Source of the DNA: a virus | Reading direction: 5' to 3' (one strand) | IMG/VR virus record: IMGVR_UViG_3300010885_016202 | Span: 1 to 46,517 of that record | DNA length: 46,517 nucleotides | Shown here: positions 4,527 through 39,741 of the stretch, piece by piece | How the letters are laid out: every line of letters starts with the position of its first letter | Position numbering within the stretch: the first letter of the stretch is position 1 | Position numbers and translations under genes: made by a program | The notes under the pieces: generated by a model | What the model saw: the letters and a program-made list of their open reading frames with translations, nothing else | The model's database searches: none | Told to the model about the DNA's origin: nothing

Positions 4527-4583
4527 AATCCGACAAGTCGATTATACAGATAATTTTTAAAATGTCAAGTGAAAGGATCATAT

Positions 4584-5131
4584 ATGTCTGAAGAAAAATC
4601 AAAAAAGCACTACGTAGACAATAAAAGCTTCTACGCTGCCTTAATAAAATATAAAATAAAAAGAAAGAAGCAGAAGGTTGCGGTCTTCCTACACCCCAGA
4701 TTCCTGAAGATATTGGCAAGTGTATCTTTCAAATTGCTACTCGACTAGCATCAAAAGGTAATTTTGTAAATTATTCCTATAAAGATGAGATGATTTCTGA
4801 TGGAATAGAAAATTGTATTAACTATATGCATAACTTTGATCCTGAAAAATCAAATAATCCATTTGCATATTTTACCAGAATCATCTATAATGCATTTATT
4901 CTGCGTATTCAAAAAGAGAAGAAGCAGACATATATCAAATACAAGACGATGGAGAATACGATTCTATCTGGCGATTCATATGAATACCAAGATATGGACA
5001 ATCCTATCATGCAGGACGTTAATGTGAATGATAACATGAATTCGTTTGTAAAAGATTATGAAAAGAAATTGAGTGAAAAGAAACTACCAAAGAAGGTAGG
5101 TATAGAATTGTTTGTAGAGGGTAATGAATGA
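4584..5131 (+). CDS. 55: Late sigma factor gp55, with an apparent frameshift
   Basis: The first frame (ATG 4584, stop 4746-4748) starts MSEEKSKKHYVDNKSFYAAL, like T4 gp55 (MSETKPKYNYVNNKELL). The -1 frame, open from 4655 to 5131, carries the rest: EDIGKCIFQIATRLASKGNF, then YSYKDEMISDGIENCINYMH, FDPEKSNNPFAYFT and RIQKEKKQTYIKYK. Adding one A to the A-run at 4658-4662 would join them. gp55 is the T4 late-promoter sigma factor and binds the gp45 clamp through its C-terminus; here the tail VGIELFVEGNE is a plausible clamp motif. This gene is essential in T4, so a sequencing error or recoding is likelier than true loss. Overlaps gene 47 by 4 nt. Confidence 0.85.
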
Positions 5132-8431: not shown

Positions 8432-9021
8432 AATATTCGTCATATGACCAGATTGATTTTCTTTCTGGAATAAAAAAGATAGCAAAGCAAATTCGTGATA
8501 GTGGATGGTATCCAGACTATATCGTTGCCATGGCACGAGGTGGTGCAGTTGCTGGTGTATATCTGTCCCATGAACTAGATGTACCTGTTATCATTGTTAA
8601 TCTAAGCACAAGACATCATTGGTCAGATGAAATTAAAGCAGATGCCAAATCTCCTCTTATAAGTAAGATTTTGAAAGAACAAATGAATGTTCTTATTTTA
8701 GATGATATTGTAGACAGCGGAAAGACAATTAAAACTCTGCTTGACAAATGGAAGGTAAAGACGTATAATGATAATCAGATTAAGGTAGCATCTTTAATCT
8801 ATAACAACACTCAACCCGTCAAAGTATCTTTTTATGATAAATTGATTGATAGAGAGTTAGACGACTTATGGTATATTTTTCCATGGGAAGTCGAAAATGC
8901 TGGTGGTCTAAAAGCACTCAACCCACATAAAATATTCTGCGTGCTATCAAACTTACTCAGGAGAGGCAAGAGATGGCTAAATATATTTCTACTAAAACTT
9001 ACAGGCACATTGGGCCGGTAG
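8428..9021 (+). CDS. Type I phosphoribosyltransferase
   Basis: 197 aa. The PRPP-binding loop VLILDDIVDSGKTI (about residue 91) and an N-terminal YIVAMARGGAVAGVYLSHEL are typical of purine phosphoribosyltransferases of the xanthine/guanine/hypoxanthine group. It opens the deazaguanine gene cluster and could salvage guanine for GTP, the first substrate of that pathway; that link is inference. The last 16 codons overlap queD by 49 nt. Homologues often end near the FPWEVE motif (about residue 151), so the tail may be an add-on. Confidence 0.85.
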   Translation: MKYSSYDQIDFLSGIKKIAKQIRDSGWYPDYIVAMARGGAVAGVYLSHELDVPVIIVNLSTRHHWSDEIKADAKSPLISKILKEQMNVLILDDIVDSGKTIKTLLDKWKVKTYNDNQIKVASLIYNNTQPVKVSFYDKLIDRELDDLWYIFPWEVENAGGLKALNPHKIFCVLSNLLRRGKRWLNIFLLKLTGTLGR

Positions 9022-9446
9022 CATATCGTCAATGGCGTGCCGACAGTCATTGCAATCTAGTACACGGATATGCTCTATCATTCTATTTCGAGTTTGAGTG
9101 CGATACACTCGATGCTCGTAACTGGTGTATGGACTTCGGCGGATTACGTCCACTTAAAGAAAATCTAGTTGAATGGTTCGACCATACATTACTAGTCGCG
9201 CAAGATGATCCTCATCGTGACGCATTACTACACTTAGGCAAACTAGGCATCGCTAAGATCACTGAAGTTGAAAAGACAGGGTGTGAAGGCATTGCTGACT
9301 TCCTATATGAATATTGTAATACCATTCTATTAAAAGAATATGGCGAGCAAGATCGTATCTGGTGTTGCAAGGTAGAGGTTCGTGAAACCGACTACAACAT
9401 GGCAATGCGAGTTGGCCATCGTGAAGATGGTGAATTCAGTGAGTAA
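8973..9446 (+). CDS. queD: QueD-like 6-carboxytetrahydropterin synthase
   Basis: 157 aa T-fold protein: SHCNLVHGYALSFYFEFE near residue 27, WCMDFGGLRPLKENL near 52 and FDHTLLV near 70 align with the HKC...HGH, IIDFAELK and LDHHYLND segments of E. coli QueD. QueD turns 7,8-dihydroneopterin triphosphate into 6-carboxytetrahydropterin in preQ0 synthesis. Oddity: the usual HGH reads HGY, and the upstream AAH histidine position reads VAY, so zinc ligation may differ. AGGAG and GAGG lie before the ATG. Flanked by queE and folE. Confidence 0.85.
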   Translation: MAKYISTKTYRHIGPVAYRQWRADSHCNLVHGYALSFYFEFECDTLDARNWCMDFGGLRPLKENLVEWFDHTLLVAQDDPHRDALLHLGKLGIAKITEVEKTGCEGIADFLYEYCNTILLKEYGEQDRIWCCKVEVRETDYNMAMRVGHREDGEFSE

Positions 9447-10299
9447 GATTAAAGTCTCTGAGTTATTCTACTCACTACAAGGTGAAGGTATGTTTGCCGG
9501 CGTACCTTCAATCTTTCTACGTACCTTCGGTTGCAATTTCACTTGCAGCGGATTTGGTATGCCTCAAGGTGCAGTGTCTAAAGAACGAGATAGCATCGCT
9601 CTTACTCATAAAGACCTGCCATACAAAAACTATAATGATCTACCTTTGGTAAGCACTGGATGCGACTCCTATGCATCATGGGATGTTCGTTTTAAGAATC
9701 TATCACCTGTGATGGAAACAAAAGACATTGTAGATAAGATGCTTCAACTGCTACCCGGGCACCAATTTAATAATGACAAGCATTTGATTATCACAGGAGG
9801 TGAACCGCTTCTTGGTTGGCAGCGTTCTTATCCTGATCTTATTGATGAGTGTATTGATAACGGATTAACAGATATTACTTTTGAAACAAATGGCACACAA
9901 GTCATTACTCATGAGTTAAGTGAATACTTGACAAGTATTTCTGATGATGTTACTATTACATTCTCGGTATCACCCAAACTACCTGTCTCAGGTGAGCGTT
10001 GGGAAGATGCTATTAAACCAGATGTGGTTGCTCAGTATAGCAATATACGTAACAGCAATTTATATCTAAAGTTTGTTGTAGCATCAGCAAAAGATATTGA
10101 TGATGTTCGGAAAGCGATATTCGAATATGAAGATCGTCCCGAGTTGTGGGCAATACCTGTATATTTGATGCCTGTTGGTGGGACCAATGAAGGTTATCAA
10201 ATGAATGAGCGCAACGTCGCTGATTTCTGTCGAGACAATGGATATCGGTTCAGTCCTCGACTACAGGTTCCGCTTTATAAAAATGCATGGGGAACATAA
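9439..10299 (+). CDS. queE: QueE, 7-carboxy-7-deazaguanine synthase
   Basis: Radical SAM enzyme of about 286 aa. FYSLQGEGMFAGVPSIFLRT leads to FGCNFTC (Cys32, Cys36). The third cluster cysteine appears to be Cys75 in STGCDSYASWD, after an insertion of about 38 residues, so the usual CX3CX2C is split. IITGGEPLLGWQ and FETNGT follow. It contracts 6-carboxytetrahydropterin to 7-carboxy-7-deazaguanine. The GTG at 9439 after GGTGA is my preferred start; an ATG at 9427 is the alternative. It overlaps queD slightly and the next gene by one base. Confidence 0.88.
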   Translation: MSKIKVSELFYSLQGEGMFAGVPSIFLRTFGCNFTCSGFGMPQGAVSKERDSIALTHKDLPYKNYNDLPLVSTGCDSYASWDVRFKNLSPVMETKDIVDKMLQLLPGHQFNNDKHLIITGGEPLLGWQRSYPDLIDECIDNGLTDITFETNGTQVITHELSEYLTSISDDVTITFSVSPKLPVSGERWEDAIKPDVVAQYSNIRNSNLYLKFVVASAKDIDDVRKAIFEYEDRPELWAIPVYLMPVGGTNEGYQMNERNVADFCRDNGYRFSPRLQVPLYKNAWGT

Positions 10300-10967
10300 T
10301 GGCAAATGTTGATAGTATAGATAAAATTGTTTCGTACTTTTCATGCGTGACAAATGAGCAGTTCAGTTATAAAGGTAAGAAATATGAACCTAAGAGACTT
10401 CATGTTTCGCCGCTTTTGTTTCGTGGATTTACATGTCCTGCAGCTTGCGGAGGATGTTGCCCCCGTTTTTCTCTTGATTATTTGCCTACTGAGCCTCGCT
10501 CGTCTTTAGCAGAAAAGCGCTACATTTTGTTTTCTGACAAAGTCGTAGAGATCTACTCTGATATGCAAAAAGATCATAACAACAAGAAGTGCCGAAATTT
10601 AAATATGGAGAACGGACGTTGTGGCATCTATGAAGTACGTCCTTTCTCTTGCGACTTCGAATTGATACGCTTCCTTGTCGCAACAGATGACGAGAAGCGT
10701 GATAATATTATCACACAAAAACTCTTCGGTCGTGGATGGGCTATGCAGCGAATTGACGGTGATAGAGGTGCATTGTGTAAAATGACACCTATTGACGTTA
10801 ATACAGTTTCTGATACAATACGCAAATTGACTCGACTCAAGGACTGGTGTGAGCACTTTGGTATTAAAAATAATAAAGTGCAGACAATTATCGATTGGGC
10901 AAAGTCATTTGATAGTTATGAGAAAATACATTCTCTTATCATAGACAAAGAAGGTATGGTGATATGA
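10299..10967 (+). CDS. YkgJ-like cysteine-cluster protein
   Basis: 222 aa. Cysteine pattern: FTCPAACGGCC near residue 44, a CRNLNMENGRCGIYEVRPFSC stretch near 100-120 (written here only to show the C..L...CxIYExRPxxC signature), and further cysteines near 154 and 183. This matches the YkgJ family of putative zinc- or iron-chelating proteins of unknown function. GGGGA lies before the ATG at 10299, which overlaps the queE stop. Its place between queE and folE suggests a part in deazaguanine synthesis or cofactor supply; that is inference. Confidence 0.75.
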   Translation: MANVDSIDKIVSYFSCVTNEQFSYKGKKYEPKRLHVSPLLFRGFTCPAACGGCCPRFSLDYLPTEPRSSLAEKRYILFSDKVVEIYSDMQKDHNNKKCRNLNMENGRCGIYEVRPFSCDFELIRFLVATDDEKRDNIITQKLFGRGWAMQRIDGDRGALCKMTPIDVNTVSDTIRKLTRLKDWCEHFGIKNNKVQTIIDWAKSFDSYEKIHSLIIDKEGMVI

Positions 10968-11647
10968 TTTCACAGGATATTAAAAAGCGTCTAGCGGATA
11001 ACAAAGTTCGTTATTATGCAAATGACAATATTTCTAAATGGGTTACTGAAGAAGATTTAAAACACCTTGTAGATGAATTAACAGATAAGTTCGAAGGTGT
11101 GCTTGATACGCTGATCATCGACATCGCCAATGATCCTAACTCAAAAGGTACAGCGCGGCGTCTTGCTAAGATGTATTTTTATGAGATTATGGCAGGTCGC
11201 TATCAAGAAATACCAGAAGCAACTGCCTTTCCTAACACAGGTAAGTTGGGTCAAAGATCTTATAAAGGCATGCTCGTAGTTCGTTCTGAAATTCGTTCTA
11301 TGTGTAGTCATCATCACCAGCCAGTGAATGGCGTAGCGTATATTGGCATTCTACCTCATGATAAAGTTATTGGGTTATCTAAGTATTCTCGTCTTGCACA
11401 ATGGTGTGCTCGTCGTGGAACCTTGCAAGAAGAACTGTGCAATGACATTGCCAGCACAATTATCAAAGCGGCAGAGTCAGATGATGTAGGTGTATATCTA
11501 AAGTTGACCCATGGGTGTTGTGAGAATCGTGGCATCATGGCATGTGATAGCACTACACAAACAACTGTATTGAGTGGCGAATTTCACACACCTGATGTTA
11601 AAAAAGAATTCTTTGATAACATTCAAATACAGGAGATGGGTAAATGA
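10964..11647 (+). CDS. folE: GTP cyclohydrolase I (FolE)
   Basis: 227 aa. Family signatures are SMCSHHHQPVNG (zinc Cys and His, about residue 109), VIGLSKYSRLAQWCARR (about 130), LQEELCNDIA (about 149) and HGCCENRGI (about 181). It converts GTP to dihydroneopterin triphosphate, the entry step to preQ0. Its start overlaps the preceding stop (ATGA), inside the queDE operon. Confidence 0.95.
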   Translation: MISQDIKKRLADNKVRYYANDNISKWVTEEDLKHLVDELTDKFEGVLDTLIIDIANDPNSKGTARRLAKMYFYEIMAGRYQEIPEATAFPNTGKLGQRSYKGMLVVRSEIRSMCSHHHQPVNGVAYIGILPHDKVIGLSKYSRLAQWCARRGTLQEELCNDIASTIIKAAESDDVGVYLKLTHGCCENRGIMACDSTTQTTVLSGEFHTPDVKKEFFDNIQIQEMGK

Positions 11648-11883: not shown

Positions 11884-12022
11884 CGTGGTTTATATGATTG
11901 ATGAATCTGAAGATTTGATTGACACAGAAATGCTTTTGCTGTATAATGAATCAATTAAACTTGAAAACAAATCTTTAAAGATTCTAAAGGATGCTCGTGA
12001 AGAAACTAGATTATGTGATTAG
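11876..12022 (+). CDS. Small hypothetical protein, 48 aa
   Basis: ATG at 11876, stop at 12020-12022; reads MSSVVYMIDESEDLIDTEML and continues as a charged helix ending in DARETRLCD. It overlaps the previous gene by 8 nt and the dpdA start by 26 nt. A consensus promoter lies inside its coding sequence, so it may be partly a leader for dpdA. Function unknown. Confidence 0.5.
   Translation: MSSVVYMIDESEDLIDTEMLLLYNESIKLENKSLKILKDAREETRLCD
11919..11947 (+). promoter_or_regulatory. Consensus sigma70 promoter upstream of dpdA
   Basis: TTGACA (11919-11924), 17-nt spacer and TATAAT (11942-11947), a perfect consensus. The predicted start of transcription is about 45 nt before the dpdA start codon, giving dpdA-queF-queC their own promoter apart from queDE-folE. 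Confidence 0.8.
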
Positions 12023-13343
12023 TGCTTGTGGCATGATGGGTGTCTTTACTCCCGATCATGAGGCACCATGGTATCCCCTCTACCAACGGGCAACGCTGTC
12101 TCTAATGAGAACGCTTAAACAGCAGATTGCTGCATCATGCCACAACACCAATCCTTTAGTGTCAACTTTGTATAATGCATACACAGAAAAAAATCACGTA
12201 GAAGAATTTAAACGACTAAGCAATCTTGGATCAGATTCTGTTTATGCAGACTCTGGCGGATTGCAAATCGTTACTGCTGGTAAGAGCATTACAGAAGAAA
12301 TTAAAAAAGAAATCTATAAGACACAAGCATACTCCGACTATGCTATGTGCTTTGACGTAATCGCACTCGAGTCAATAGCAAAAACTCGTACACGTAATGA
12401 GCGATCAAACATTGGTAATAAGATATTCAAAGCAGATAAGCATATAAAATCTGCTCATGCCACCGGCGACAATATTAAAGCACAAACAACTTACTTTAGA
12501 AATACAAACGCTAAAACAAAAGTAGTCATCATTGTACAGGGTAATAACTCACAAGACATGGTTGACTTCTATAATGGCATTGCTAGTCGATTGTCACCAG
12601 AAGATTATGAAAATATTGGCGGCATGGCAATTGCTGATACTTGTATTGGTAATGGCGAACTAGAGTCTATCGAGATGCTACGTGCTGCTAAAATGATCTC
12701 TGAGGTGTGTCATGAGAACGTGAGAAAGCATCTGCACGTATTAGGAGTCGGATCCATATCACGTATGCGACCCATCTTATACCTTCTTAAATCGGGTTAT
12801 CTAAGCGAATTTGAAAGAATTTCTTATGATTCAAGTTCACATACTTCTACATTCCAATATGGATTGCTAAAGTTAAATGGGACTTGCAAGTCAATTGGCA
12901 CTACTAAAACATATGCAGTTGACAAACATTTTAGAAATGTGTATAATTTATTCAAGGATACGTTCTCTGAGTACGTGACAGAAGACCAGTATATAAACAA
13001 TCTGTTTCCAGATACTAATACTGATTGGAAGTTCTCAACGATCAAGAATCGTATTCTACAAAACACAGATCATGATGCAATTGTGTCTACGTTACTTTGC
13101 AATGCAGCACACACCTATTATCAGATTCATAACTTCGTCACTAATCTTGATGTAGTGATGACAAATGAATATGGCAAGTTTAAAGAACACCCAGATGATA
13201 AAGATGTTGCATTGAATCATCTATTGAATGTTCAAACAGCACAAGATATGGAATATTGGATGAATAGTCGCAAAGGTCAAGTCACCTCTAAGCGTATTGT
13301 TCGTAGTACTGAATTATCAACCCTTGAAGGATTTTTCTCATGA
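11997..13343 (+). CDS. dpdA: DpdA-like DNA tRNA-guanine-transglycosylase homologue
   Basis: About 448 aa. TGT-type motifs: YADSGGLQIVTAGKSI near residue 84, MCFDVIALES near 116, GGMAIADTCIG near 207, HVLGVGSISRMRP near 243 and ISYDSSSHTSTFQYG near 273, where the catalytic aspartates of the family lie. I see no CxCxxC zinc site of tRNA-type TGTs. Phage DpdA exchanges guanine in DNA for a 7-deazaguanine base. AAAGG suits a GTG start at 11997; ATG 11991 is the alternative. The last residues TLEGFFS equal those of this phage's DNA polymerase, a likely clamp-binding tail. queF overlaps by 4 nt. Confidence 0.88.
   Translation: MKKLDYVISACGMMGVFTPDHEAPWYPLYQRATLSLMRTLKQQIAASCHNTNPLVSTLYNAYTEKNHVEEFKRLSNLGSDSVYADSGGLQIVTAGKSITEEIKKEIYKTQAYSDYAMCFDVIALESIAKTRTRNERSNIGNKIFKADKHIKSAHATGDNIKAQTTYFRNTNAKTKVVIIVQGNNSQDMVDFYNGIASRLSPEDYENIGGMAIADTCIGNGELESIEMLRAAKMISEVCHENVRKHLHVLGVGSISRMRPILYLLKSGYLSEFERISYDSSSHTSTFQYGLLKLNGTCKSIGTTKTYAVDKHFRNVYNLFKDTFSEYVTEDQYINNLFPDTNTDWKFSTIKNRILQNTDHDAIVSTLLCNAAHTYYQIHNFVTNLDVVMTNEYGKFKEHPDDKDVALNHLLNVQTAQDMEYWMNSRKGQVTSKRIVRSTELSTLEGFFS
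13318..13343 (+). repeat. 26-nt direct repeat shared by the 3' ends of dpdA and gene 43
   Basis: Positions 13318-13343 and 25251-25276 match at 25 of 26 bases; the one difference is silent (CTT/CTA for Leu). Both copies encode the C-terminus TLEGFFS, end in ATGA where the stop and the next start overlap, and contain the GAAGGA that serves as ribosome binding site for queF and for the gene at 25273. Confidence 0.95.
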
Positions 13344-14290
13344 CAGATTTAGATATCTCTCTTGCAAGATCTGCAATTGAACAACTTGCCGGTGTACATC
13401 TTGGCAAAGCAGGTGATGGCACTGCAGTTAAACCTTATGTCACTCCTGACCATGTTGACCCATCGTTACTCGTTGCTGTGCCTCGGGTGCTCAATCGTAC
13501 ACAATATGGTATTGACGAACTCAAGTTGCCCTTTGTAGGATATGATACATGGAACTGCTATGAGTTTTCTACATTAATGCCAAACGGGTTACCTCGCACA
13601 GGATTGTTACGAGTCGTATATCCTGCGGATTCACTTAACATTGTTGAATCAAAGTCATTGAAGTTGTATTTAAATTCATACAACATGGTTAAGCAAGATC
13701 ATGACGATGAATTTGTTATGACAGATGTTTGTGATAAAATTCGAAAGGATTTGTCACATGCTATTGATAACGATGATATAATAGTTGCGTACCATGACAA
13801 TGATGATGTTTTTAGTAAACCTATCACAGGCAATTTTGTTAATCTTGAAAAGACATTTGATTTTTCGAGCGTTGAATTTAATCAGTTCAATGAATCACCA
13901 GATATTCTGCAGACACAACCTGCAGAATCATATTGCACTCAGTATCACTCTAGTTTGCTAAGATCAAACTGTCGAGTGACCAACCAGCCAGATTGGGGTG
14001 ATGTGTACATTCATATTAAAGCAAATAAGTCTGTCATGCCTATATCATTGCTACAATATATTGTATCGATGCGTAAAGAAAATCATTTCCATGAAGAAAT
14101 TTGTGAGTGTATTTACAAGAGACTTTATGATATACTGAATCCAGATGAATTGCTAGTAGCATGTTTATACACACGGCGCGGCGGCATTGATATTAATCCT
14201 GTGCGAGCGTCATCCAATGAAGTGTTATGCAAGTATGCAACCAATTTAACTAATGCAGATACCGTAAACATTAAAACATTGAGGCAGTAG
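13340..14290 (+). CDS. queF: QueF, preQ0 (7-cyano-7-deazaguanine) reductase
   Basis: 316 aa, the long two-domain type like E. coli QueF (282 aa). The NADPH-binding segment ESKSLKLYLNSYN (about residue 103) and the active-site segment LLRSNCRVTNQPDWG (about 208) with its thioimide-forming Cys and the Asp of QPDWG are intact, as are HFHEEICE and YTRRGGIDINP. It should reduce preQ0 to preQ1. Lying between dpdA and queC, it implies that preQ1 may be the base inserted in DNA. There is an insertion near residues 120-140 relative to E. coli. Confidence 0.92.
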   Translation: MTDLDISLARSAIEQLAGVHLGKAGDGTAVKPYVTPDHVDPSLLVAVPRVLNRTQYGIDELKLPFVGYDTWNCYEFSTLMPNGLPRTGLLRVVYPADSLNIVESKSLKLYLNSYNMVKQDHDDEFVMTDVCDKIRKDLSHAIDNDDIIVAYHDNDDVFSKPITGNFVNLEKTFDFSSVEFNQFNESPDILQTQPAESYCTQYHSSLLRSNCRVTNQPDWGDVYIHIKANKSVMPISLLQYIVSMRKENHFHEEICECIYKRLYDILNPDELLVACLYTRRGGIDINPVRASSNEVLCKYATNLTNADTVNIKTLRQ

Positions 14291-14291
14291 T

Positions 14292-14453
14292 ATGATAGTT
14301 CCGAATGGACATTTTATAGCATCGTTATTCAAAAGCGCAATTCGTATTGTAGGTTGCATCGTATTAATTGAAGCTGCAGATTATACTGTGCAATTAGCAG
14401 GTATCGCATTTCTATTAGCAGAAGCGGTTGGTATCGTTGAGGAAATGGTATGA
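14292..14453 (+). CDS. Small hydrophobic protein, 53 aa
   Basis: Reads MIVPNGHFIASLFKSAIRIV and then a hydrophobic C-terminal half (VQLAGIAFLLAEAVGIVEEM) that could span or bind a membrane. It begins 1 nt after the queF stop and its stop overlaps the queC start (ATGA), so it is part of the operon. Function unknown. Confidence 0.6.
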   Translation: MIVPNGHFIASLFKSAIRIVGCIVLIEAADYTVQLAGIAFLLAEAVGIVEEMV

Positions 14454-15220
14454 AGCATGAGACTCCGTTTTTAAATGAAGCATTATTGCTTCTTCCTGAA
14501 ACAGATAAAAATGTAGTGAGTGTTATCTCAGGTGGATTAGATTCAACCATCATGACGTATATTCTAGTTGAGAAGTATGGAGCAGATCGTGTATTTGCGC
14601 TATCATACAACTACGGACAAAAGCAATGGTATGAACTCGAGATGGCAGCGTTGACCTGCAAACATCTTGGTATCAAGCACAAGGTTCTAAAACTTGATGT
14701 GCTGGGTGATATTGCTAAGACCATGTCAGCAAACATTGAAGGATCAGACGTTGCTATGCCGACTATCAAGGACGTACTAGGTGACCCACAACCTGCAACG
14801 TATGTTCCGTTTCGTAATATGATTCTTAACTCGTTAGCATTTTCTTATGCAGAAGCAAATAAAGCATCTCATGTGTTTACGGGATTACAGGTTCATGATG
14901 AGTATGGATATTGGGACACAACTCAACGATTCGTAGATTCTATGAATAGCGTATCAGCACAGAACAGAACACATAAAGTAGAACTATGTGCTCCTTTTAG
15001 TAAGCTAAGTAAGTATCAAGAATTATTAATTGTAAAAGATATGGGAAATGTGCTTGTAGAAAATACACTAACGTGTTATAATCCTGCAAACGGTAAGTAT
15101 TCTTGCGGTAAATGTCCTTCATGCGCTGAGCGTATTCAGAACTTTGCCAAAGCAGGAATCAAAGACCCTATTCCATATGCAGTTGATATTCCTTGGGACA
15201 AATTATTATGTGCAGCGTAA
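14450..15220 (+). CDS. queC: QueC, 7-cyano-7-deazaguanine synthase
   Basis: 256 aa PP-loop ATPase. SGGLDST at residues 27-33 is the ATP-pyrophosphatase loop. The C-terminal zinc site is the four cysteines of CYNPANGKYSCGKCPSCAER (about residue 205). It turns 7-carboxy-7-deazaguanine into preQ0 with ATP and ammonia, via an amide intermediate. Its 3' end overlaps the amidotransferase gene by 13 nt, which recalls the Gat-QueC fusions of other phages. Confidence 0.95.
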   Translation: MKHETPFLNEALLLLPETDKNVVSVISGGLDSTIMTYILVEKYGADRVFALSYNYGQKQWYELEMAALTCKHLGIKHKVLKLDVLGDIAKTMSANIEGSDVAMPTIKDVLGDPQPATYVPFRNMILNSLAFSYAEANKASHVFTGLQVHDEYGYWDTTQRFVDSMNSVSAQNRTHKVELCAPFSKLSKYQELLIVKDMGNVLVENTLTCYNPANGKYSCGKCPSCAERIQNFAKAGIKDPIPYAVDIPWDKLLCAA

Positions 15221-15837
15221 TCGGAAGTTTTAGTAAAGATAAAATTATCGAACTATGTGAAATTAATGCTTATCGTGGACAACACTCGCATTCTATTAGT
15301 TATTATGACCCAGATGTAAATGTCTTTAAAGAAGTAAATAGATTTACAGGTCCTGTCAATTACGACGCTATTAAAATTCCTGAGGGATACTATTGCATCG
15401 TACACATGCAAGCCCCCACCACAGAAAATAAAAATTCAAAGACAATACATCCAGCAAAAATTGGATCGTCGCTGTTATGGCACAATGGCATTATTAAGAA
15501 TAAAGAATGTGCTCGCCTACGTCATGAGTATCAGCTGAGTTCTACTTGGGACACATATCTTCTATTGCATTATGTAAATGTAGAACAAACACCTAAAGGT
15601 ATTGATGGCACCTTCTCATGCCTCTGGTATGACGGATCTAAATTATATCTTTTTAGAAATGAAATTAGTCCTATGTTTATCGATACTGATTTCAATATAT
15701 CATCAACTCGGTTTAAAAATTCAATTGCAACAGAACCTAATTCAGTATTGTTGTTTGATCCTAAAGAAAAAAAGACAACACCTATTACTCATTTTGACAC
15801 AGTTGAAAATCCATATTACTTTGGAGAGGTGGGATGA
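15208..15837 (+). CDS. Stand-alone class II glutamine amidotransferase
   Basis: 209 aa. The ATG at 15208 puts Cys at position 2 (MCSVIGSF), the N-terminal nucleophile of Ntn-type amidotransferases; upstream in-frame starts would bury it. Other hallmarks: YRGQHSHS near residue 22, HMQAPT near 72, LLWHNGII near 93, DTYLLLH near 112, and GTFSCLWYDGSKLYLFRNE near 130-150. Such domains release ammonia from glutamine. In known phages a Gat domain is fused to QueC; here it is a separate gene overlapping queC. It may feed ammonia to QueC or take part in a further base change; that is inference. Confidence 0.85.
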   Translation: MCSVIGSFSKDKIIELCEINAYRGQHSHSISYYDPDVNVFKEVNRFTGPVNYDAIKIPEGYYCIVHMQAPTTENKNSKTIHPAKIGSSLLWHNGIIKNKECARLRHEYQLSSTWDTYLLLHYVNVEQTPKGIDGTFSCLWYDGSKLYLFRNEISPMFIDTDFNISSTRFKNSIATEPNSVLLFDPKEKKTTPITHFDTVENPYYFGEVG

Positions 15838-17142: not shown

Positions 17143-17799
17143 ATGATTCTAAGTGACAAGACGACAAAGGTTCTACAGAACTTTGCAACAATCAATTCTG
17201 GTATTTTGTTTCGTAGCGGCAATGTGATCCGCACAATCTCACCTCAAAAAACAATTATGGCAAAAGCAACTGTCGATGAAACATTCGACCGTGACTTTGC
17301 TATCTTTAATCTAAATCGCTTCCTGGGTGTGTTATCACTATTCCAGAGTCCTGAGATTGTAGTAGGTGAAAAGTCAGCGACGATTGTTGCCGATAAGCAG
17401 AAATTAACTTATGTGTATGCTGATCCTACAACCTTCATGACACCTCCTGAGAAGGATGTGACGTTTCCTATTCCTGAGATTACATTTAAACTCAAAGCAG
17501 CAGATTTAGATAAGGTTAAGAAGGCAGGCAATGTAATGCAGTTGCCAGAGATCGCCATAACAGGTGATGGTGCAACAATGATGATTCGTGCGGTTGATAT
17601 GAAGAACCCAACAGCAGACGGATTCAGCATTGATGTAGCAACAACTGAGTTGAAATTCAACGCGGTATTTAAAGCAGAACAACTTATCATGCTTCCTAAT
17701 GACTATGATGTTGTGATCTCATCAAAGGGTATTTCAAAGTTTGACGCAACCAATTTGACCTATTGGGTTGCGGTAGAAGCATCTTCTACTTTTGCGTGA
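17143..17799 (+). CDS. 45: gp45 sliding clamp
   Basis: 218 aa (T4 228). FNLNRFLGVLSLFQSPEIVV and the pattern of alternating strands (VVGEKSATIVADKQKLTYVY) match the T4 clamp family; it is followed at once by genes 44, 62 and regA as in T4. The trimeric ring holds the polymerase on DNA and, in T4, activates late transcription through gp55/gp33. TAGGAG lies before the ATG. It would be the partner of the TLEGFFS tails noted for polymerase and DpdA. Confidence 0.93.
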   Translation: MILSDKTTKVLQNFATINSGILFRSGNVIRTISPQKTIMAKATVDETFDRDFAIFNLNRFLGVLSLFQSPEIVVGEKSATIVADKQKLTYVYADPTTFMTPPEKDVTFPIPEITFKLKAADLDKVKKAGNVMQLPEIAITGDGATMMIRAVDMKNPTADGFSIDVATTELKFNAVFKAEQLIMLPNDYDVVISSKGISKFDATNLTYWVAVEASSTFA

Positions 17800-17831: not shown

Positions 17832-18773
17832 ATGTCCAGTGAACAATTCCTATGGGTCGAGAAATATCGCCCAAGGACGATTGAGGATTGCATTCTCCCC
17901 GATCATCTAAAGAAAGTATTTCAACAATTTATTGATCAAAAGAATATTCCCAATCTACTTCTAACAGGTAGTGCGGGAGTAGGTAAGACAACTGTCGCTC
18001 GTGCAATGCTAGAGCAGATTGGTGCAGACTATATCATCATTAACGGATCACTCAACGGAAACATTGATACGCTTCGTAATGAGATCATGCAGTTTGCATC
18101 GTCTGTTTCTTTCAAGGGTGGTCGCAAGTATGTGATCCTTGACGAGGCAGATTATCTTAACCCACAAAGTACACAACCTTCGTTGCGTAACTTCATGGAG
18201 GAATTCAGTAAGAACTGTGGGTTCATTCTCACATGTAATTACAAAAATCGAATCATTCCTCCACTACACTCACGCTGTTCAGTCGTTGAGTTTAAAATCG
18301 CTAAGAAAGATAAGCCGTCACTTGCTTCACAGTTTATGAAGCGAATGTTTGCTATTTTGCAGAAAGAAAATGTAAAATATGACAAGGAAGTAGTCGTTGA
18401 GATAATTACAAGATACTTTCCTGATTGGAGAAGGGTCTTAAATGAGAGCCAACGTCATTCTGCTAGCGGTTCTATTGATTCGGGTATCTTTGGTGGTGTC
18501 TCTAGCGATTCTTATAAAAGCCTTGCTGACGCATTAAAAGGTAAGAACTTTACTGCAATGCGTAAATGGGTGGGTGAGCACTCAGACGCTGATACAACGT
18601 CTCTGTTCAGACAATTATATGATAACGCAGCAGAACTCCTTGTGCCAGGATCTATTCCTAATCTGATATTGACCATTGCAGACTATCAATACAAGGCAGC
18701 ATTCGTTGCTGATCAAGAGATAAACATCGTTGCTTGCATGACTGAAATCATGAGGGATTGTACATTCAAATGA
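17832..18773 (+). CDS. 44: gp44 clamp loader large subunit
   Basis: 313 aa AAA+ ATPase (T4 319). VEKYRPRTIEDCILPDHLKK at the N-terminus, Walker A LLTGSAGVGKTT (about residue 44), Walker B VILDEADYL (about 105), and the arginine finger in LHSRCSVVEF (about 148). With gp62 it opens and loads the gp45 ring. The stop overlaps the next start. Confidence 0.96.
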   Translation: MSSEQFLWVEKYRPRTIEDCILPDHLKKVFQQFIDQKNIPNLLLTGSAGVGKTTVARAMLEQIGADYIIINGSLNGNIDTLRNEIMQFASSVSFKGGRKYVILDEADYLNPQSTQPSLRNFMEEFSKNCGFILTCNYKNRIIPPLHSRCSVVEFKIAKKDKPSLASQFMKRMFAILQKENVKYDKEVVVEIITRYFPDWRRVLNESQRHSASGSIDSGIFGGVSSDSYKSLADALKGKNFTAMRKWVGEHSDADTTSLFRQLYDNAAELLVPGSIPNLILTIADYQYKAAFVADQEINIVACMTEIMRDCTFK

Positions 18774-18997
18774 AAACATATATCCATGTAAACCAGCACA
18801 TTATTCGTTCTAATAAAAAGAATGGCACAAATGATGCAGTAATCACAATCAAGCGCGGATCTAAAAATACATACTGTAAGCGAGTGCGTATCTTAGGTCC
18901 ATCTGAAGTTATCTATGGCGGCAATGATAAAGCCATACTTTCTTGTGGGGCACGAGTCGTTATAATGACTGAAGGTGAAGTAGAGATTGTAGAATGA
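18770..18997 (+). CDS. Conserved small phage protein between genes 44 and 62
   Basis: 75 aa, beginning MKTYIHVNQHIIRSNKKNG and containing NTYCKRVRILGPSEVIYGG. I recognise this as a small protein widely shared by phages of many types, with a mostly beta-strand pattern and no known function. The ATG at 18770 overlaps the gene 44 stop, and its own stop overlaps gene 62, so it is locked into the clamp-loader operon. Confidence 0.85.
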   Translation: MKTYIHVNQHIIRSNKKNGTNDAVITIKRGSKNTYCKRVRILGPSEVIYGGNDKAILSCGARVVIMTEGEVEIVE

Positions 18998-19464
18998 ATA
19001 TCTTAGATTTGATGGCATGTATGCATGAAGATGAACCTGTAGTCAAGGAGGAGTCATACAAACTTAAGGCTCAGTTCAGTCCTTTTGATTATATTGACAG
19101 TATTAGTTTTAGTAAAAAGAATCTTCTTGAGCTCGCTGAGCATCCAGATTACGAAGAAACTAAATACAGTGCATGGATAGTGAATAAAGGTCTTTCATAT
19201 TTTCCTGATACAATAGGATATGCGAATTTCATCAATACGAATTATCATCTAGACGCAAAACTACAATATAATTTTTTAATAAATATTGTTAGTACAAAGA
19301 AGAGATATGCAAAGTGGGCTAAGAAGCCAGAATGTGGTGACATTGATATAGTAAAAAAGGTTTACGGGTATTCTCAGAAGAAAGCCGAAGTTGCTTTATC
19401 ATTGTTATCTGCTGATCAATTAGCGTCGCTAAAAAAAGAACAACAAACAGGCGGACTCAAATGA
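18994..19464 (+). CDS. 62: gp62 clamp loader small subunit
   Basis: 156 aa. YSAWIVNKGLSYFPDTIGYA (residues about 62-81) and KRYAKWAKKPE are the hallmark segments of T4-like gp62, followed by a YGYSQKKAEVALSLL helix. It combines with gp44 as one subunit per four gp44. Overlaps regA by 4 nt. Confidence 0.93.
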   Translation: MNILDLMACMHEDEPVVKEESYKLKAQFSPFDYIDSISFSKKNLLELAEHPDYEETKYSAWIVNKGLSYFPDTIGYANFINTNYHLDAKLQYNFLINIVSTKKRYAKWAKKPECGDIDIVKKVYGYSQKKAEVALSLLSADQLASLKKEQQTGGLK

Positions 19465-22748: not shown

Positions 22749-22771
22749 AAAACATAACTGTGAGGTACATG

Positions 22772-25276
22772 ATGAACTTTTACACACACGCCCTACAACG
22801 TGGCAACAATATCTATCTGAGAGGTATCGAGAACGGCAAGCGGTTCAAGATCAAAGTCCCGTACAAGCCGTATCTGTTTATTCCTGGCAAGCCGAAAACA
22901 GAATCCAAATACAGAACTCTTGCTGGTCATCCGGTAGATCGAATCGATTTTGGGAACATCTACGAGGCAAAGGATTTCCTTAAGCGATATGAAGGTGTCT
23001 CCAATATGGAGATATACGGATTAGATAAATTTCTGTACACACACTTGAATGACGCATATAATGACGAAATTGTTTATGATAAAGAATTAATCAATATCTG
23101 CAACATCGATATTGAGGTTGAGTCCGATTCAGGATTCCCAAGCATACGAGATGCCGATAAGGCAGTCACAGCAATCACGATGAAAGTCGGCAAGAACATC
23201 TTCGTGTTCGGTTGCGGCGACTATGTAACATCAAAAGAAAATGTTCACTATGCTAAGTGTAAGAACGAAGCCGCCATGCTGCTCAAGTTTCTTGATGTAT
23301 GGCAGCATCTAGACATTGATGTGATCACAGGATGGAACGTCGAGTTCTTTGATATTCCATATCTCGTCAATCGTATCACCAAAGTGCATGATGAGACATT
23401 CGCTAAGAAGTTGTCTCCATGGGGCATGTTAGATGAGCGCAAGATTGAGATCAACGGCAAGGAACAACAATCCTATACTCCCGTAGGCATTTCAGTCCTT
23501 GACTATCTACAGTTGTACAAAAAGTATACCTATAGCAATCAAGAATCCTATCGCCTCGACCATATCTGTTCGGTTGAACTGGGTGAAGGTAAAGTAAATT
23601 ATTCAGAATTCGATAGTCTCTTTGCTTTATACAAGGAAAACTATCAGAAATTCATGGATTATAACGTGAATGACGTTCTTCTCGTTGAAAAGCTAGATGA
23701 GAAGATGAACTTTCTTGATCAAGCATTTACTATTGCGTATGACGCCAAGACAAACTTCGAAGATGTGTTTACGTCTGTTCGCTTGTGGGATGTAATCATT
23801 CACAACTATCTAATCAATCAAAGCATTGTCATTCCACAATTCAAACACACAGCAAAGTATTCACAGTTCGCTGGTGCGTTTGTTAAGGATCCACAAGTCG
23901 GATTGCACAACTGGGTTGCGTCCTTTGACGTTACTTCACTGTATCCGTCTTTGATTGTACAATACAATATCTCACCCGAAACCTATATGGGTAAGATTCG
24001 TCAGAACTTTTCTATTGATCAATTGCTTGGTGGTGCATTTGGTGATGATGAGATACAAGAACAATTAAAAGATTTGAACTGCGCTCTAACAGCGAACAGT
24101 TGTCTTTGGAGTAAAGAGAAGAAAGGTGCCTTCCCGTCTCTTGTAGAAAAGATGATGGAAGATCGTAAACTGTACAAGAACAAAATGCTTGCCGCAAAGA
24201 AAGAGTACGAAAAGAATCCGTCTAAGCAATTGAGTAATGATATTGCACGCTACACCAATATGCAGATGGCACGTAAGATTCAACTCAACTCGCTGTATGG
24301 CACGCTCGGCAATCAATGGTCACGTTGGTTTCAGATCGAGTTTGCAGAAGCAATTACATTATCAGGTCAGTTTGTTATTCGATGGATTGAGAACAATCTC
24401 AATGAATATCTTAATAAGCTATTAAAGACAAACAAGAAGGACTATGTGATTGCGGTTGATACTGATTCAAACTATTTGAACCTGGGTGGATTGGTCGAAA
24501 AGTTTCTGAAAGACAAGACACCGAATGAAATAGTCAATGCATTAGATAAGATGTGCAAAGATAAACTCGAACCATACATTGACTCGTGCTTTGCTGATCT
24601 TGGTAATCATACTAATGCCTATACAAACTTCATGAAGATGAAGCGTGAGTCGATTGCCAACAAAGGCATATGGACAGCAAAGAAGCGATACATTCTTAAT
24701 GTCTATGACAATGAAGGTGTGCGCTATGCTGAACCTAAGTTAAAGATGAACGGCATCGAAGCGGTCAAGTCGTCTACTCCTGCATCATGCCGAGAGAAGA
24801 TTAAGCAAGCATTGAAGTTAATCATGGAGACCGATGAGGAAACATTACAACAGTTTGTCATGAAGTTTCGTCAGGAATTTCAGCGAATGCCGTTTGAAGA
24901 GATTGCTTTTCCTCGTGGGTGTCGTGGCATGTCTGAGTATCGTAGCAAAGACGATATCTACAAGAAGGGCACACCTATTCATGTGCGTGGAGCATTGCTG
25001 TATAATTCGCTTCTAAATAAACATAACCTTACTTCAAAGTATCCTGTCATTCAGGAAGGTGAAAAGGTCAAGTTTTGTTATATGAAAGTGCCTAACCCAC
25101 TAAAAGAAAATGTACTTGCCGTATCGACTGCATTGCCCAAGCAGTTTGGATTAGCACAGTATATTGATTATGAAACACAGTTTGAAAAGGCGTTCCTGGA
25201 TCCCATGCGTATTATTCTCAACGTGATTCATTGGACACCAGAAAAGCTAGCAACCCTAGAAGGATTTTTCTCATGA
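22772..25276 (+). CDS. 43: gp43 family B DNA polymerase
   Basis: 834 aa from the ATG at 22772 (MNFYTHALQRGNNIYLRG), chosen for GAGGT spacing; ATG 22769 and GTG 22760 are alternatives. Exonuclease motifs: ICNIDIEVES, VITGWNVEFFDIPYLVNR and YNVNDVLLVEKLDE. Polymerase motifs: A ASFDVTSLYPSLI, B ARKIQLNSLYGTLGNQW, C IAVDTDSNYLNL. The C-terminus TLEGFFS is the expected clamp-binding tail (T4-like polymerases bind gp45 through their last residues). The same tail occurs on DpdA. Confidence 0.97.
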   Translation: MNFYTHALQRGNNIYLRGIENGKRFKIKVPYKPYLFIPGKPKTESKYRTLAGHPVDRIDFGNIYEAKDFLKRYEGVSNMEIYGLDKFLYTHLNDAYNDEIVYDKELINICNIDIEVESDSGFPSIRDADKAVTAITMKVGKNIFVFGCGDYVTSKENVHYAKCKNEAAMLLKFLDVWQHLDIDVITGWNVEFFDIPYLVNRITKVHDETFAKKLSPWGMLDERKIEINGKEQQSYTPVGISVLDYLQLYKKYTYSNQESYRLDHICSVELGEGKVNYSEFDSLFALYKENYQKFMDYNVNDVLLVEKLDEKMNFLDQAFTIAYDAKTNFEDVFTSVRLWDVIIHNYLINQSIVIPQFKHTAKYSQFAGAFVKDPQVGLHNWVASFDVTSLYPSLIVQYNISPETYMGKIRQNFSIDQLLGGAFGDDEIQEQLKDLNCALTANSCLWSKEKKGAFPSLVEKMMEDRKLYKNKMLAAKKEYEKNPSKQLSNDIARYTNMQMARKIQLNSLYGTLGNQWSRWFQIEFAEAITLSGQFVIRWIENNLNEYLNKLLKTNKKDYVIAVDTDSNYLNLGGLVEKFLKDKTPNEIVNALDKMCKDKLEPYIDSCFADLGNHTNAYTNFMKMKRESIANKGIWTAKKRYILNVYDNEGVRYAEPKLKMNGIEAVKSSTPASCREKIKQALKLIMETDEETLQQFVMKFRQEFQRMPFEEIAFPRGCRGMSEYRSKDDIYKKGTPIHVRGALLYNSLLNKHNLTSKYPVIQEGEKVKFCYMKVPNPLKENVLAVSTALPKQFGLAQYIDYETQFEKAFLDPMRIILNVIHWTPEKLATLEGFFS

Positions 25277-30071: not shown

Positions 30072-30104
30072 CCTAACTGCTTGATTTTAAAATGATTAAA
30101 GTTC

Positions 30105-30133
30105 TTGCATTTAATAGCCTCTTTTGTTATTAT
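30105..30133 (+). promoter_or_regulatory. Repeated TTGCATTTAAT promoter, copy B
   Basis: TTGCAT (30105-30110), 17-nt spacer beginning TTAAT, TATTAT (30128-30133). The region from -35 to the next gene is nearly identical to copy E at 39.2 kb. The leader has ATGATGAATAAC, then AAGG as ribosome binding site. Confidence 0.8.
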
Positions 30134-30163
30134 TAATACATGATGAATAACAAGGCAAAGCAG

Positions 30164-30565
30164 ATGACTAGTTTCAAGAAAGAAAATTTCCGTAAAAGCG
30201 GAATATACCTCCTCTATGTGCTGGACGAGACTCACGGCATGTATAACCCACACAACAAGTACCGCGGCGAGTTTGTAGCCCGCTTCAAATATCAACGGGG
30301 TGCAGCTGGAACGTTTCAGACCTTCCTGATCAAGAACTTCACCGTAGAAGAATACTTCAGCCGCTTGGCGGCGCATGAGGCTCCTCTAGCGATTCTGCAG
30401 AGCAAGGGTTACATTCTTCCCCACATTAAGAAGTGGTTGAAAGAGGGCGGTTATCCGGTGACTCCAGAAGGTTACAAGCAATTTAACCTTGACCAGCATG
30501 CCATCAGCGAGACGCTCGCTAATCTTAAGAAGAAAGGCTACTTGACCGCTATGAAGGCTGCCTAA
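30164..30565 (+). CDS. Hypothetical accessory protein, 133 aa
   Basis: Begins MTSFKKENFRKSGIYLLYVL. Basic, mixed alpha/beta; the C-terminal part reads GYPVTPEGYKQFNLDQHAIS. In-frame ATGs at 30140 and 30143 belong to the repeated leader; AAGG sits 8 nt before the ATG at 30164, so I use this one. Codon use is visibly more GC-rich than in the replication genes. Function unknown. Confidence 0.75.
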   Translation: MTSFKKENFRKSGIYLLYVLDETHGMYNPHNKYRGEFVARFKYQRGAAGTFQTFLIKNFTVEEYFSRLAAHEAPLAILQSKGYILPHIKKWLKEGGYPVTPEGYKQFNLDQHAISETLANLKKKGYLTAMKAA

Positions 30566-30566
30566 G

Positions 30567-30737
30567 ATGATCACGCACTTCGCCTCTGTCGCGGAAGCAG
30601 TTGCATATATGCATGATCTCGGATTTTCGACGGTCGAGAATGGTGCTAATGGACGCATCATGGAAGACTTTCGTGGGCGTCAAGTCAACATCTATCACAG
30701 AGGCTTGTTGGACGTGGTAATTAATCCTCTTGACTAA
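30567..30737 (+). CDS. Small hypothetical protein, 56 aa
   Basis: Reads MITHFASVAEAVAYMHDLGF, continuing STVENGANGRIMEDFRGRQV and ending INPLD. The pattern of a helix followed by strands, and GC-rich codons, resemble its upstream neighbour, which it follows by 1 nt. No family recognised. Confidence 0.65.
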   Translation: MITHFASVAEAVAYMHDLGFSTVENGANGRIMEDFRGRQVNIYHRGLLDVVINPLD

Positions 30738-30765
30738 CCCATTGATTTTTAAATGATTATAAATC

Positions 30766-30794
30766 TTGCATTTAATTCCGCTATACGTCATAAT
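30766..30794 (+). promoter_or_regulatory. Repeated TTGCATTTAAT promoter, copy C
   Basis: TTGCAT (30766-30771), 17-nt spacer, CATAAT (30789-30794). Closest to minus-strand copy A, including TACGTCATAATGTATACATG-type context around the -10 box. Confidence 0.8.
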
Positions 30795-30824
30795 GTATAC
30801 ATGATGAACAACAAGGCAAAGCAA

Positions 30825-31601
30825 ATGAAGTTACTGACGATCCAGGCTGATTCTAAGACGGTGAAGGGCGAGAAGAAAGGCTACTTGACCGCTATCATGT
30901 ATCTAGCCCCCTACAAGCTGTCTGGTTATCAGGTCTGCCCTATGGCCGAGATTGCAGGCTGTGTTGGCGACTGCTTGAACACTGCAGGCCGCGGCGGTAT
31001 GGCGAAGGCCGATGCCGAAACCATCACGGTAGATGGTTATGTGGTCAAGCTCAACACCATTCAGAAGGCTCGTATCACTCGGACACGCTTCTTCTTTGAA
31101 GATCGCGCTGGCTTCATGGCACAGCTGATCAAAGAGATTTCTGCAGCTCGCAAGAAGGCAACCAAGATGGGTTTGACGCTGGTAGTGCGTTTAAATGGCA
31201 CCTCAGACATCCGTTGGGAGAGTGTCTCTACGTATCAGCAGAAAGCAAATCGCATCGGTTATGCGACCATCTTTGATGTGTTCAGCGACATTCAGTTCTA
31301 TGACTACACCAAGATTCCGAACCGTGATACCAAGCACATTTCAAACTATCACCTGACCTTCTCAGTATCTGCTCGTAAAGAGTTCTATAAGATCTGGGAC
31401 AAGGCGCAGGAATTCTATGGTCGTGGTATGAACTACGCTGCAGTGTTCAAGGGTGTTCTGCCTAAGGGCTATCAGGGCTATCCTGTGATCAACGGTGACG
31501 AGAGCGATCTTCGTTTCTTAGATCTTAAGGGTGTAGTTGTTGGGTTGAAGGCAAAAGGCCAGGCGCGTAAGTCAACGTCTGGTTTCGCGGTGGCTGCATA
31601 A
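30825..31601 (+). CDS. Cysteine-containing phage protein, DUF7227/GP88-like
   Basis: 258 aa from the ATG at 30825 (MKLLTIQADSKTVKGEKKGY); an in-frame ATG at 30753 lies in the promoter and is not used. GYQVCPMAEIAGCVGDCLNT with AGRGGM (about residues 35-60) has CX7CX3C. Then RFFFEDRAGFMAQLIKEI, VVRLNGTSDIRWE (about 123), FYDYTKIPNR, NYHLTFS and a C-terminal DLRFLDLKGVVVGLKAKGQA. I recall this as a widespread phage family of unknown function; the ordered cysteines suggest metal or iron-sulfur binding. Confidence 0.8.
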   Translation: MKLLTIQADSKTVKGEKKGYLTAIMYLAPYKLSGYQVCPMAEIAGCVGDCLNTAGRGGMAKADAETITVDGYVVKLNTIQKARITRTRFFFEDRAGFMAQLIKEISAARKKATKMGLTLVVRLNGTSDIRWESVSTYQQKANRIGYATIFDVFSDIQFYDYTKIPNRDTKHISNYHLTFSVSARKEFYKIWDKAQEFYGRGMNYAAVFKGVLPKGYQGYPVINGDESDLRFLDLKGVVVGLKAKGQARKSTSGFAVAA

Positions 31602-33243: not shown

Positions 33244-33290
33244 AATCAAGAGGATAACAGCGTCTTAGCTAACCTCTTGATTTCTAAGAC
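33244..33290 (+). other. Competing hairpins upstream of promoter copy D
   Basis: AATCAAGAGG (33244-33253) pairs over 10 bp with CCTCTTGATT (33273-33282). GTCTTAG (33262-33268), in its loop, pairs over 7 bp with CTAAGAC (33284-33290). The single base between the right arms is too short to cross a 10-bp helix, so the two are probably alternatives rather than a pseudoknot. Possible terminator or attenuator. Confidence 0.45.
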
Positions 33291-33300
33291 ATCGTAGTTC

Positions 33301-33329
33301 TTGCATTTAATTCGCCACTTTGTTAATAT
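33301..33329 (+). promoter_or_regulatory. Repeated TTGCATTTAAT promoter, copy D
   Basis: TTGCAT (33301-33306), 17-nt spacer beginning TTAAT, TAATAT (33324-33329). The upstream part matches the other copies, but the downstream leader has diverged. Confidence 0.75.
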
Positions 33330-33374
33330 GAATAATCGATTGAATGAATGAATGGTTAGAAAGGAAGAAGAAAT

Positions 33375-39155: not shown

Positions 39156-39208
39156 ATAACTCATTGATTCTAGGTTGAATTTAGTTTGTAGTTTCCATAA
39201 GAAAATGC

Positions 39209-39237
39209 TTGCATTTAATAGCTTGGTTTGTTATTAT
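39209..39237 (+). promoter_or_regulatory. Repeated TTGCATTTAAT promoter, copy E
   Basis: TTGCAT (39209-39214), 17-nt spacer, TATTAT (39232-39237). The leader down to the gene start is identical to that of copy B over more than 30 nt. Confidence 0.8.
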
Positions 39238-39267
39238 TAATACATGATGAATAACAAGGCAAAGCAG

Positions 39268-39741
39268 ATGAGCGACTATAAAGACATGTATCTCCTGGCA
39301 GGCTCGGAAAAGCTGTCACGAGAGTTTAACGACCTCGGGTCGTTCTACAGCGACTTCCACAAGGATGTCTATGGGTATCGCCCTCGTAGCATGGCACTGT
39401 GTGCCTGTGACTATCCTGACCATGCGTCGCTGGTCGAGGCGATGAGTCACCTTGATCGTCTGACCCGGGATCTTCAGGACTACATGGAAGCCAGGAAGTC
39501 GACATTCGAAGGTCGTGAGACGCTCCGCTCCGAGGGGTGGCACATTGAGGAAACCGATCCCCAGTATATTGCTGCTGCAGCTGAGAATGAGGCTCTCCGT
39601 GCTGCCGAGCGTGCTCGGATGGAGTATGAGTGCTCATGGGAGTATCACATCGAGCTGCAGGAATCAGAATTTGCAGCGAAAGCAGAGAAAGCGGAGGATG
39701 ATCTCCATTCTCACTTCTACAACAAGTATGAGGCTGTCTAA
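39268..39741 (+). CDS. Hypothetical accessory protein, 157 aa
   Basis: MSDYKDMYLLAGSEKLSREF, then DFHKDVYGYRPRSMALCACD and a long acidic helix (ENEALRAAERARMEYECSWE). The DFYGYRPR-like element is common in phage hypotheticals. ATG at 39268 follows AAGG; the in-frame ATG at 39244 is in the repeated leader. Markedly GC-rich codons compared with neighbours. Function unknown. Confidence 0.8.
   Translation: MSDYKDMYLLAGSEKLSREFNDLGSFYSDFHKDVYGYRPRSMALCACDYPDHASLVEAMSHLDRLTRDLQDYMEARKSTFEGRETLRSEGWHIEETDPQYIAAAAENEALRAAERARMEYECSWEYHIELQESEFAAKAEKAEDDLHSHFYNKYEAV

Follow-up and report, generated by a model that had tools for sequence, protein, structure and literature searches.

A polymerase-type C-terminal tail on the phage DNA transglycosylase DpdA and its predicted docking on the gp45 sliding clamp

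How an enzyme that modifies bases after replication keeps pace with it and picks phage DNA has yet to be explained. The window, i.e. the whole analysed stretch of 46,517 nt (IMG/VR record IMGVR_UViG_3300010885_016202, a T4-like phage), raises this question in a particular form: its DNA guanine transglycosylase DpdA and its DNA polymerase gp43 end in nearly the same peptide. A tail docking the enzyme on the sliding clamp would, if true, provide the answer.

The shared C-terminus of DpdA and gp43

Judging by homology and by the predicted structure, ORF 11991-13343 encodes DpdA with a TGT-like fold. The protein is 26.6% identical over 97% of its length to the product of the DpdA2 gene VPFG_00171 of Vibrio phage nt-1 (tblastn, E 3e-34). 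The Foldseek search with its AlphaFold2 (AF2) model retrieved TGT (5i02, E 2e-7) as well as the DNA preQ0 insertase DpdA (7ui4, E 7e-7). Two candidate catalytic aspartates, Asp87 (DSGGLQ) and Asp280 (YDSS), are invariant across 36 sequences. The gene is surrounded by 7-deazaguanine genes, of which QueD, QueC and the QueF-like one are identified by Pfam, the QueE and Gat matches being weak:

8973..9446, + strand: QueD-like (PTPS) protein, 7-deazaguanine pathway (Pfam PTPS)
9415..10299, + strand: QueE-like radical SAM protein, start uncertain (weak Pfam Fer4_12/Radical_SAM match)
10964..11647, + strand: putative FolE-like GTP cyclohydrolase (sequence, and position beside dpdA as in KVP40 and pf16)
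11991..13343, + strand: dpdA, DNA guanine transglycosylase of the DpdA2 group, 450 aa (phrog_10773, E 4e-81; tblastn; AF2/Foldseek)
13340..14290, + strand: QueF-like gene, start overlapping the dpdA stop (Pfam QueF_N, QueF)
14450..15220, + strand: QueC (Pfam QueC, E 9e-51)
15193..15837, + strand: glutamine amidotransferase (Gat) adjoining QueC (Pfam GATase_7, just below cut-off)

DpdA ends in STLEGFFS (residues 443-450) and gp43 in ATLEGFFS. The underlying DNA, 13318-13343 (CAACCCTTGAAGGATTTTTCTCATGA) and 25251-25276 (CAACCCTAGAAGGATTTTTCTCATGA), is the same at 25 of 26 bases with a single mismatch; each stretch is the in-frame 3' terminus of its ORF, the first that of DpdA and the second that of gp43 (22760-25276). 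Coordinates, frames and translations thus bear out the likeness described in the initial annotation. Each of the two stops overlaps the start of the next gene (ATGA). The features concerned are:

22760..25276, + strand: gp43, family B DNA polymerase, 838 aa from GTG (phrog_262, Pfam DNA_pol_B)
13317..13340, + strand: tail codons STLEGFFS of dpdA, predicted gp45-binding peptide (sequence, low pLDDT, kept in relatives)
25250..25273, + strand: tail codons ATLEGFFS of gp43 (sequence, polymerase tails of relatives, T4 gp43 end)
13327..13331, + strand: AAGGA, Shine-Dalgarno-like word in the dpdA tail codons, with an 8-nt spacer to the ATG that starts the QueF-like gene (sequence, statistics over relatives)
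25260..25264, + strand: AAGGA, Shine-Dalgarno-like word in the codons of the gp43 tail, with an 8-nt spacer to the ATG at 25273 (sequence)

The likeness goes beyond chance, since the two proteins share 7 of their 8 C-terminal residues while the runner-up among the 1176 pairs formed by the 49 genes of the window shares only 4. Within the window this type of tail is confined to DpdA and gp43. In the AF2 model of DpdA (mean pLDDT 90, core mostly >90) the pLDDT is 56 over residues 441-450 and drops under 50 in the final four (447-450); the model places the tail, at low confidence, outside the folded core.

Retention of the tail and its covariation with the polymerase

With the strict motif defined as [LIV][ED]x[FLIVM][FYW] at the extreme C-terminus, 65 of the 100 distinct DpdA 3' ends and 60 of the 70 polymerase ends carry the tail. 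A gene-blind scan of ORFs of at least 90 aa found the C-terminal motif in 150 of 4706 (73 DpdA, 58 polymerases and 19 others). The same motif placed at internal offsets as a control had mostly 4-10 carriers; three offsets with 18, 36 and 65 carriers are taken to be repeats of single families. DpdA proteins of relatives end, among others, in TTLEDFFS, STIEGFFA, GTLDGLFS, SSLEGLFT, SLEDLFQ, TLDSFFE and TLDNFFGV. The tail is retained down to ~30% identity among IMG/VR and phage genomes and is a feature of the DpdA family. On the tree of the DpdA core it is present in both deep halves, with about six gains or losses. The motif is absent from DpdA of 9g, the siphophage control, which ends in RLQDLFDE.

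The tail is missing from DpdA in the KVP40/nt-1/D527, pf16 and L164-L171 groups and in single cases of loss such as L114 and L010; the polymerases of KVP40, nt-1, D527, pf16 and L164-L171 keep the tail that their DpdA lacks. The tail is likewise lost from the 64-65% identical DpdA of L114/L115. Active but tail-less DpdA beside a tailed polymerase in close relatives had been named beforehand as an observation that would count against clamp binding, and it was encountered in part (KVP40, nt-1, pf16, together with the L114/L115 loss). Hence some lineages can do without the tail. KVP40, though its DpdA is tail-less, encodes a 366-aa protein with the tail-like end GEVDSLFD (L374:4547-5647).

Covariation between the tails of DpdA and polymerase was followed in 38 distinct pairs, each from one genome (L012-L017, L116-L127 and L205 have no polymerase on their contigs and do not enter this set). 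The mean tail score of own pairs is 17.5 versus 12.35 (s.d. 0.74) for permuted pairs, and none of 10,000 permutations reaches it. The choice between Phe and Leu at the same position agrees in all 25 pairs with both motifs (12 of F-type, 13 of L-type), as exemplified by SLEELFG/SLESLFG in X1, TLDELFE/SLDDLFE in ACP17 and STVDSLFD/NTVDDLFG in L211 (DpdA/polymerase). This raw agreement is inflated by shared descent, as the tree-aware sign test contains only two well-supported independent pairs; both are concordant, and the test is underpowered. Base composition is not the cause of the F/L match, because the ends of the gp26 chaperone keep GL[ED]DFF in X1, Stenotrophomonas phage Mendera and Acidovorax phage ACP17, where DpdA and polymerase end in LF.

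Related tails on other modification enzymes

Similar ends were found on enzymes unrelated to DpdA. C5-methyltransferases encoded just before the gp45 cluster end in NSLETFFN (L034) and TLTLENFFN (L048); the polymerases of these two phages are 57% and 68% identical to gp43 of the window, and no DpdA was found on the two contigs, which are incomplete. In L048 the methyltransferase is preceded by an alpha-glucosyltransferase which extends beyond the end of its T4 counterpart and terminates with NLERFFS, a sequence absent from the T4 enzyme (end FDIITK). An amino acid:DNA transferase ending in GLDFFME is encoded in L040 and L052, and a tailed glycosyltransferase-like protein in Synechococcus phage BUCT-ZZ01, L222 and L225, in all three of which DpdA is tailed too. 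Tail-less homologues are the alpha-glucosyltransferase and C5-methyltransferase of S-TIM5 (for which no gp43 match was obtained), the alpha-glucosyltransferases of T4 and Klebsiella, TAGT of L031/L036, ADDT of Cr30, the PF00145 C5-methyltransferase of S-B43 and a distant glycosyltransferase of X1.

L031:226-1646 and L036:2067-3481, which harbor the closest polymerase relative (92%), carry a TET-associated glycosyltransferase and a dCMP deaminase near gp45, neither of them tailed, a sign that the modification cassettes at this place are exchanged from phage to phage. In L034:16-2982 the tailed C5-methyltransferase is preceded by a PLP-type protein (phrog_7093) and a phrog_13881 protein with the near-tail end NASLEAFL; the cassette is possibly an undescribed route of cytosine hypermodification. 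In Pseudomonas phage Cygsa01 (L329:1-1710) the terminase large subunit ends in GGSLDDFFNN and may be a further clamp client; T4 gp17 reportedly contacts gp45.

The strongest test was provided by 5-hmdU hypermodification enzymes of phages that have a different polymerase tail. The ends of polymerase, amino acid:DNA transferase (ADDT) and the 5-hmdU DNA kinases HMUD2 and HMUDK are VNLLAMMGKKG, VNLMSLMKK, NVLAMMLRK and VNLLERMKK in Menlow; SVMDFFS, DLMGFFQ, NVFDLF and SVLDLF in Cygsa01; and KARKLW, KTRKLW, KTKKLW and VTKRLW in Vibrio phage K476. All 9 enzyme tails of these phages match their own polymerase best, as against 1 of 3 gp26 ends; as the three phages were picked after some of the tails had been seen, the comparison is illustrative and not a formal test. 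In K476 (L327:8502-16544, L323:18205-18528) ends of the type [KR]xLW occur on 5 of ~227 genes, with zero matches in the internal control. One of the five codes for an uncharacterized 107-aa protein which, from its sequence, may belong to the same complex. Kinases and transferases of the 5-hmdU pathway came to light through the C-terminus they share with the polymerase, before they had been annotated. A protein sharing the C-terminus of its phage's polymerase is a candidate clamp client, and the tail may serve as a handle on unknown modification enzymes.

The gp26-type baseplate chaperones (PF12322) also have GLEDFF-like ends (L340:538-1299, L346:7844-8554, L358:4546-5328, L026:11018-11863). 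Their C-terminus does not track the polymerase in K476 or Menlow, and gp26 was rejected as a clamp client. As gp26 shows, the motif alone proves nothing.

Docking on gp45 and alternative explanations

The presumed partner and its loader are encoded downstream of dpdA, and gp55 upstream of it:

17143..17799, + strand: gp45 sliding clamp, proposed partner of the DpdA and gp43 tails (phrog_223, Pfam gp45-slide_C)
17832..18773, + strand: gp44, clamp loader large subunit (phrog_168, Gp44_lid)
18994..19464, + strand: gp62-type clamp loader subunit (phrog_225, Phage_clamp_A)
4790..5131, + strand: gp55 late sigma factor, C-terminal part (phrog_234)

The clamp of the window matches the solved gp45 of T4 and RB69. 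In T4 the C-termini of gp43, gp55 and gp33 bind gp45, and one can be exchanged for another (PMC2988020). T4 gp43 ends in SLDFLFG and T4 gp55 in SLDFLYEAND, with which the gp55 end of the window, GIELFVEGNE, is comparable. Like the tail of DpdA, those of T4 gp43, gp55 and gp33 are short hydrophobic and acidic peptides at or near the C-terminus, but they belong to a polymerase and to transcription factors, whereas DpdA is a DNA base-modifying enzyme.

The initial prediction of a clamp-type tail on DpdA is strongly supported by its conservation, by the same-genome covariation, by the AF2 model and by its recurrence on unrelated enzymes. Very probably the tail tethers DpdA to the clamp, this being the best explanation of the data, with gp45 inferred as the partner. 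The LExFF-type peptide and its neighbouring residues would dock DpdA on a free gp45 subunit, and guanine would be exchanged for a 7-deazaguanine on newly replicated phage DNA bearing loaded clamps; the tail would in this way affect where and when the DNA is modified. Comparable tails would have been acquired by other post-replicative modification enzymes of the T4 superfamily, and whenever the docking code of a phage changes, its polymerase and modification enzymes would take over the change. A wider reading, which we hold with less assurance but still favor, is that the hypermodification pathways of the T4 superfamily are clients of the replication clamp. Enzymes of unrelated folds (DpdA, 5-hmdU DNA kinases, amino acid:DNA transferases, C5-methyltransferases and glycosyltransferases) would have independently gained a per-phage C-terminal code common with the polymerase and would follow its changes. 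Phages with such tails thus probably protect newly made DNA through enzymes that travel with the replication machinery.

There are parallels for such recruitment. The alpha-glucosyltransferase of T4 reportedly interacts with gp45 (Sommer, 2004). This has been confirmed by its co-purification with gp45, and its output is set mostly by promoter strength and expression and not by clamp binding (PMC13216743). Like DpdA in our proposal it is a post-replicative DNA-modifying enzyme on the sliding clamp; however, it has no such C-terminal tail and must therefore bind gp45 via another surface. DpdA2 of nt-1 belongs to the same protein family and operon type as DpdA of the window but, as in KVP40, is tail-less. 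In nt-1 DNA ~0.11% of G is present as dPreQ0 (PMC6884629); the absence of the tail could explain this low level of ~0.1%, which is one data point. In animals the maintenance methylation enzyme DNMT1 is brought to new DNA by a peptide binding the clamp PCNA. It differs from DpdA in that the PIP box is N-terminal and the clamp is PCNA, the enzymes and the peptides being unrelated. A search of the open-access literature turned up no description of a clamp tail for DpdA or for 5-hmdU enzymes.

The alternative that survives best, although we regard it as unlikely, is docking of the tail on a hub other than gp45 that would serve the polymerase too, such as the single-strand binding protein, the helicase or a scaffold. 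Three modification enzymes of Aeromonas phage phiA8-29 (L372:2975-9914) share the end K[KR]LW while its polymerase ends in VNVLKFFK, and KARKLW of the K476 polymerase is an extension ~30 residues past the usual tail position, the end being shared there by the 107-aa protein. For these reasons the KLW-type code may bind another hub. The tail of DpdA, however, belongs to the LExFF type; T4-type polymerases, which are known to partner gp45 (PMC2988020), carry it at their very C-terminus.

It is less probable still that the tail is a convergent by-product of the stop/start overlap, i.e. that the overlap and the Shine-Dalgarno word force L-E-G/D while the hydrophobic residues arise by chance or serve folding. 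The proposal that the tail DNA doubles as a ribosome binding site is itself substantiated, the Shine-Dalgarno-like word being enriched where the stop overlaps ATGA: it is present in 36 of 42 such DpdA tails and 13 of 15 such polymerase tails, as compared with 12 of 58 and 13 of 55 otherwise. The tails overlapping ATGA also favor Gly, Asp and Glu. Given the peptide, the Shine-Dalgarno word and the ATGA overlap, a match with at most one mismatch has P ~0.13 (0.008 if unconstrained), so the likeness of the two DNA stretches is unremarkable. Nevertheless the motif is kept in 32 of 58 non-overlapping DpdA tails, by which this explanation is largely refuted; the agreement of Phe or Leu with the own polymerase has nothing to do with the Shine-Dalgarno word, and the hypermodification enzymes follow their codes without Shine-Dalgarno content. 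The least probable alternative is that the DpdA tail competes with the polymerase for the clamp and regulates replication: identical tails would be expected to contend for one site, but gp45 is a trimer offering several, and a tail on modification enzymes of differing chemistry fits recruitment better.

By the same calculation the earlier suggestion, that the near-identity reflects a copied module and not convergence, is unsupported. A recent copy event at the 3' end was rejected as unneeded. The tail codons differ freely among relatives, and in L002/L028, the nearest relative with both genes, the tail DNA is clearly different. The tail may nonetheless have arisen by an ancient copying event.

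Two further observations concern the window itself. At 4532-5131 the match of the gp55 ORF, which starts at 4790, is limited to the C-terminal half of the sigma family; the N-terminal half lies outside that open frame (split, frameshift or other start). Four related 95-nt copies (30073-30167, 30734-30828, 33269-33363 and 39177-39271; 60-78% identity to the first) carry TTGCATTTAA and TATTAT-like words, with the start MMNNKAKQM common to three; by sequence they are putative repeated early promoter/leader cassettes.
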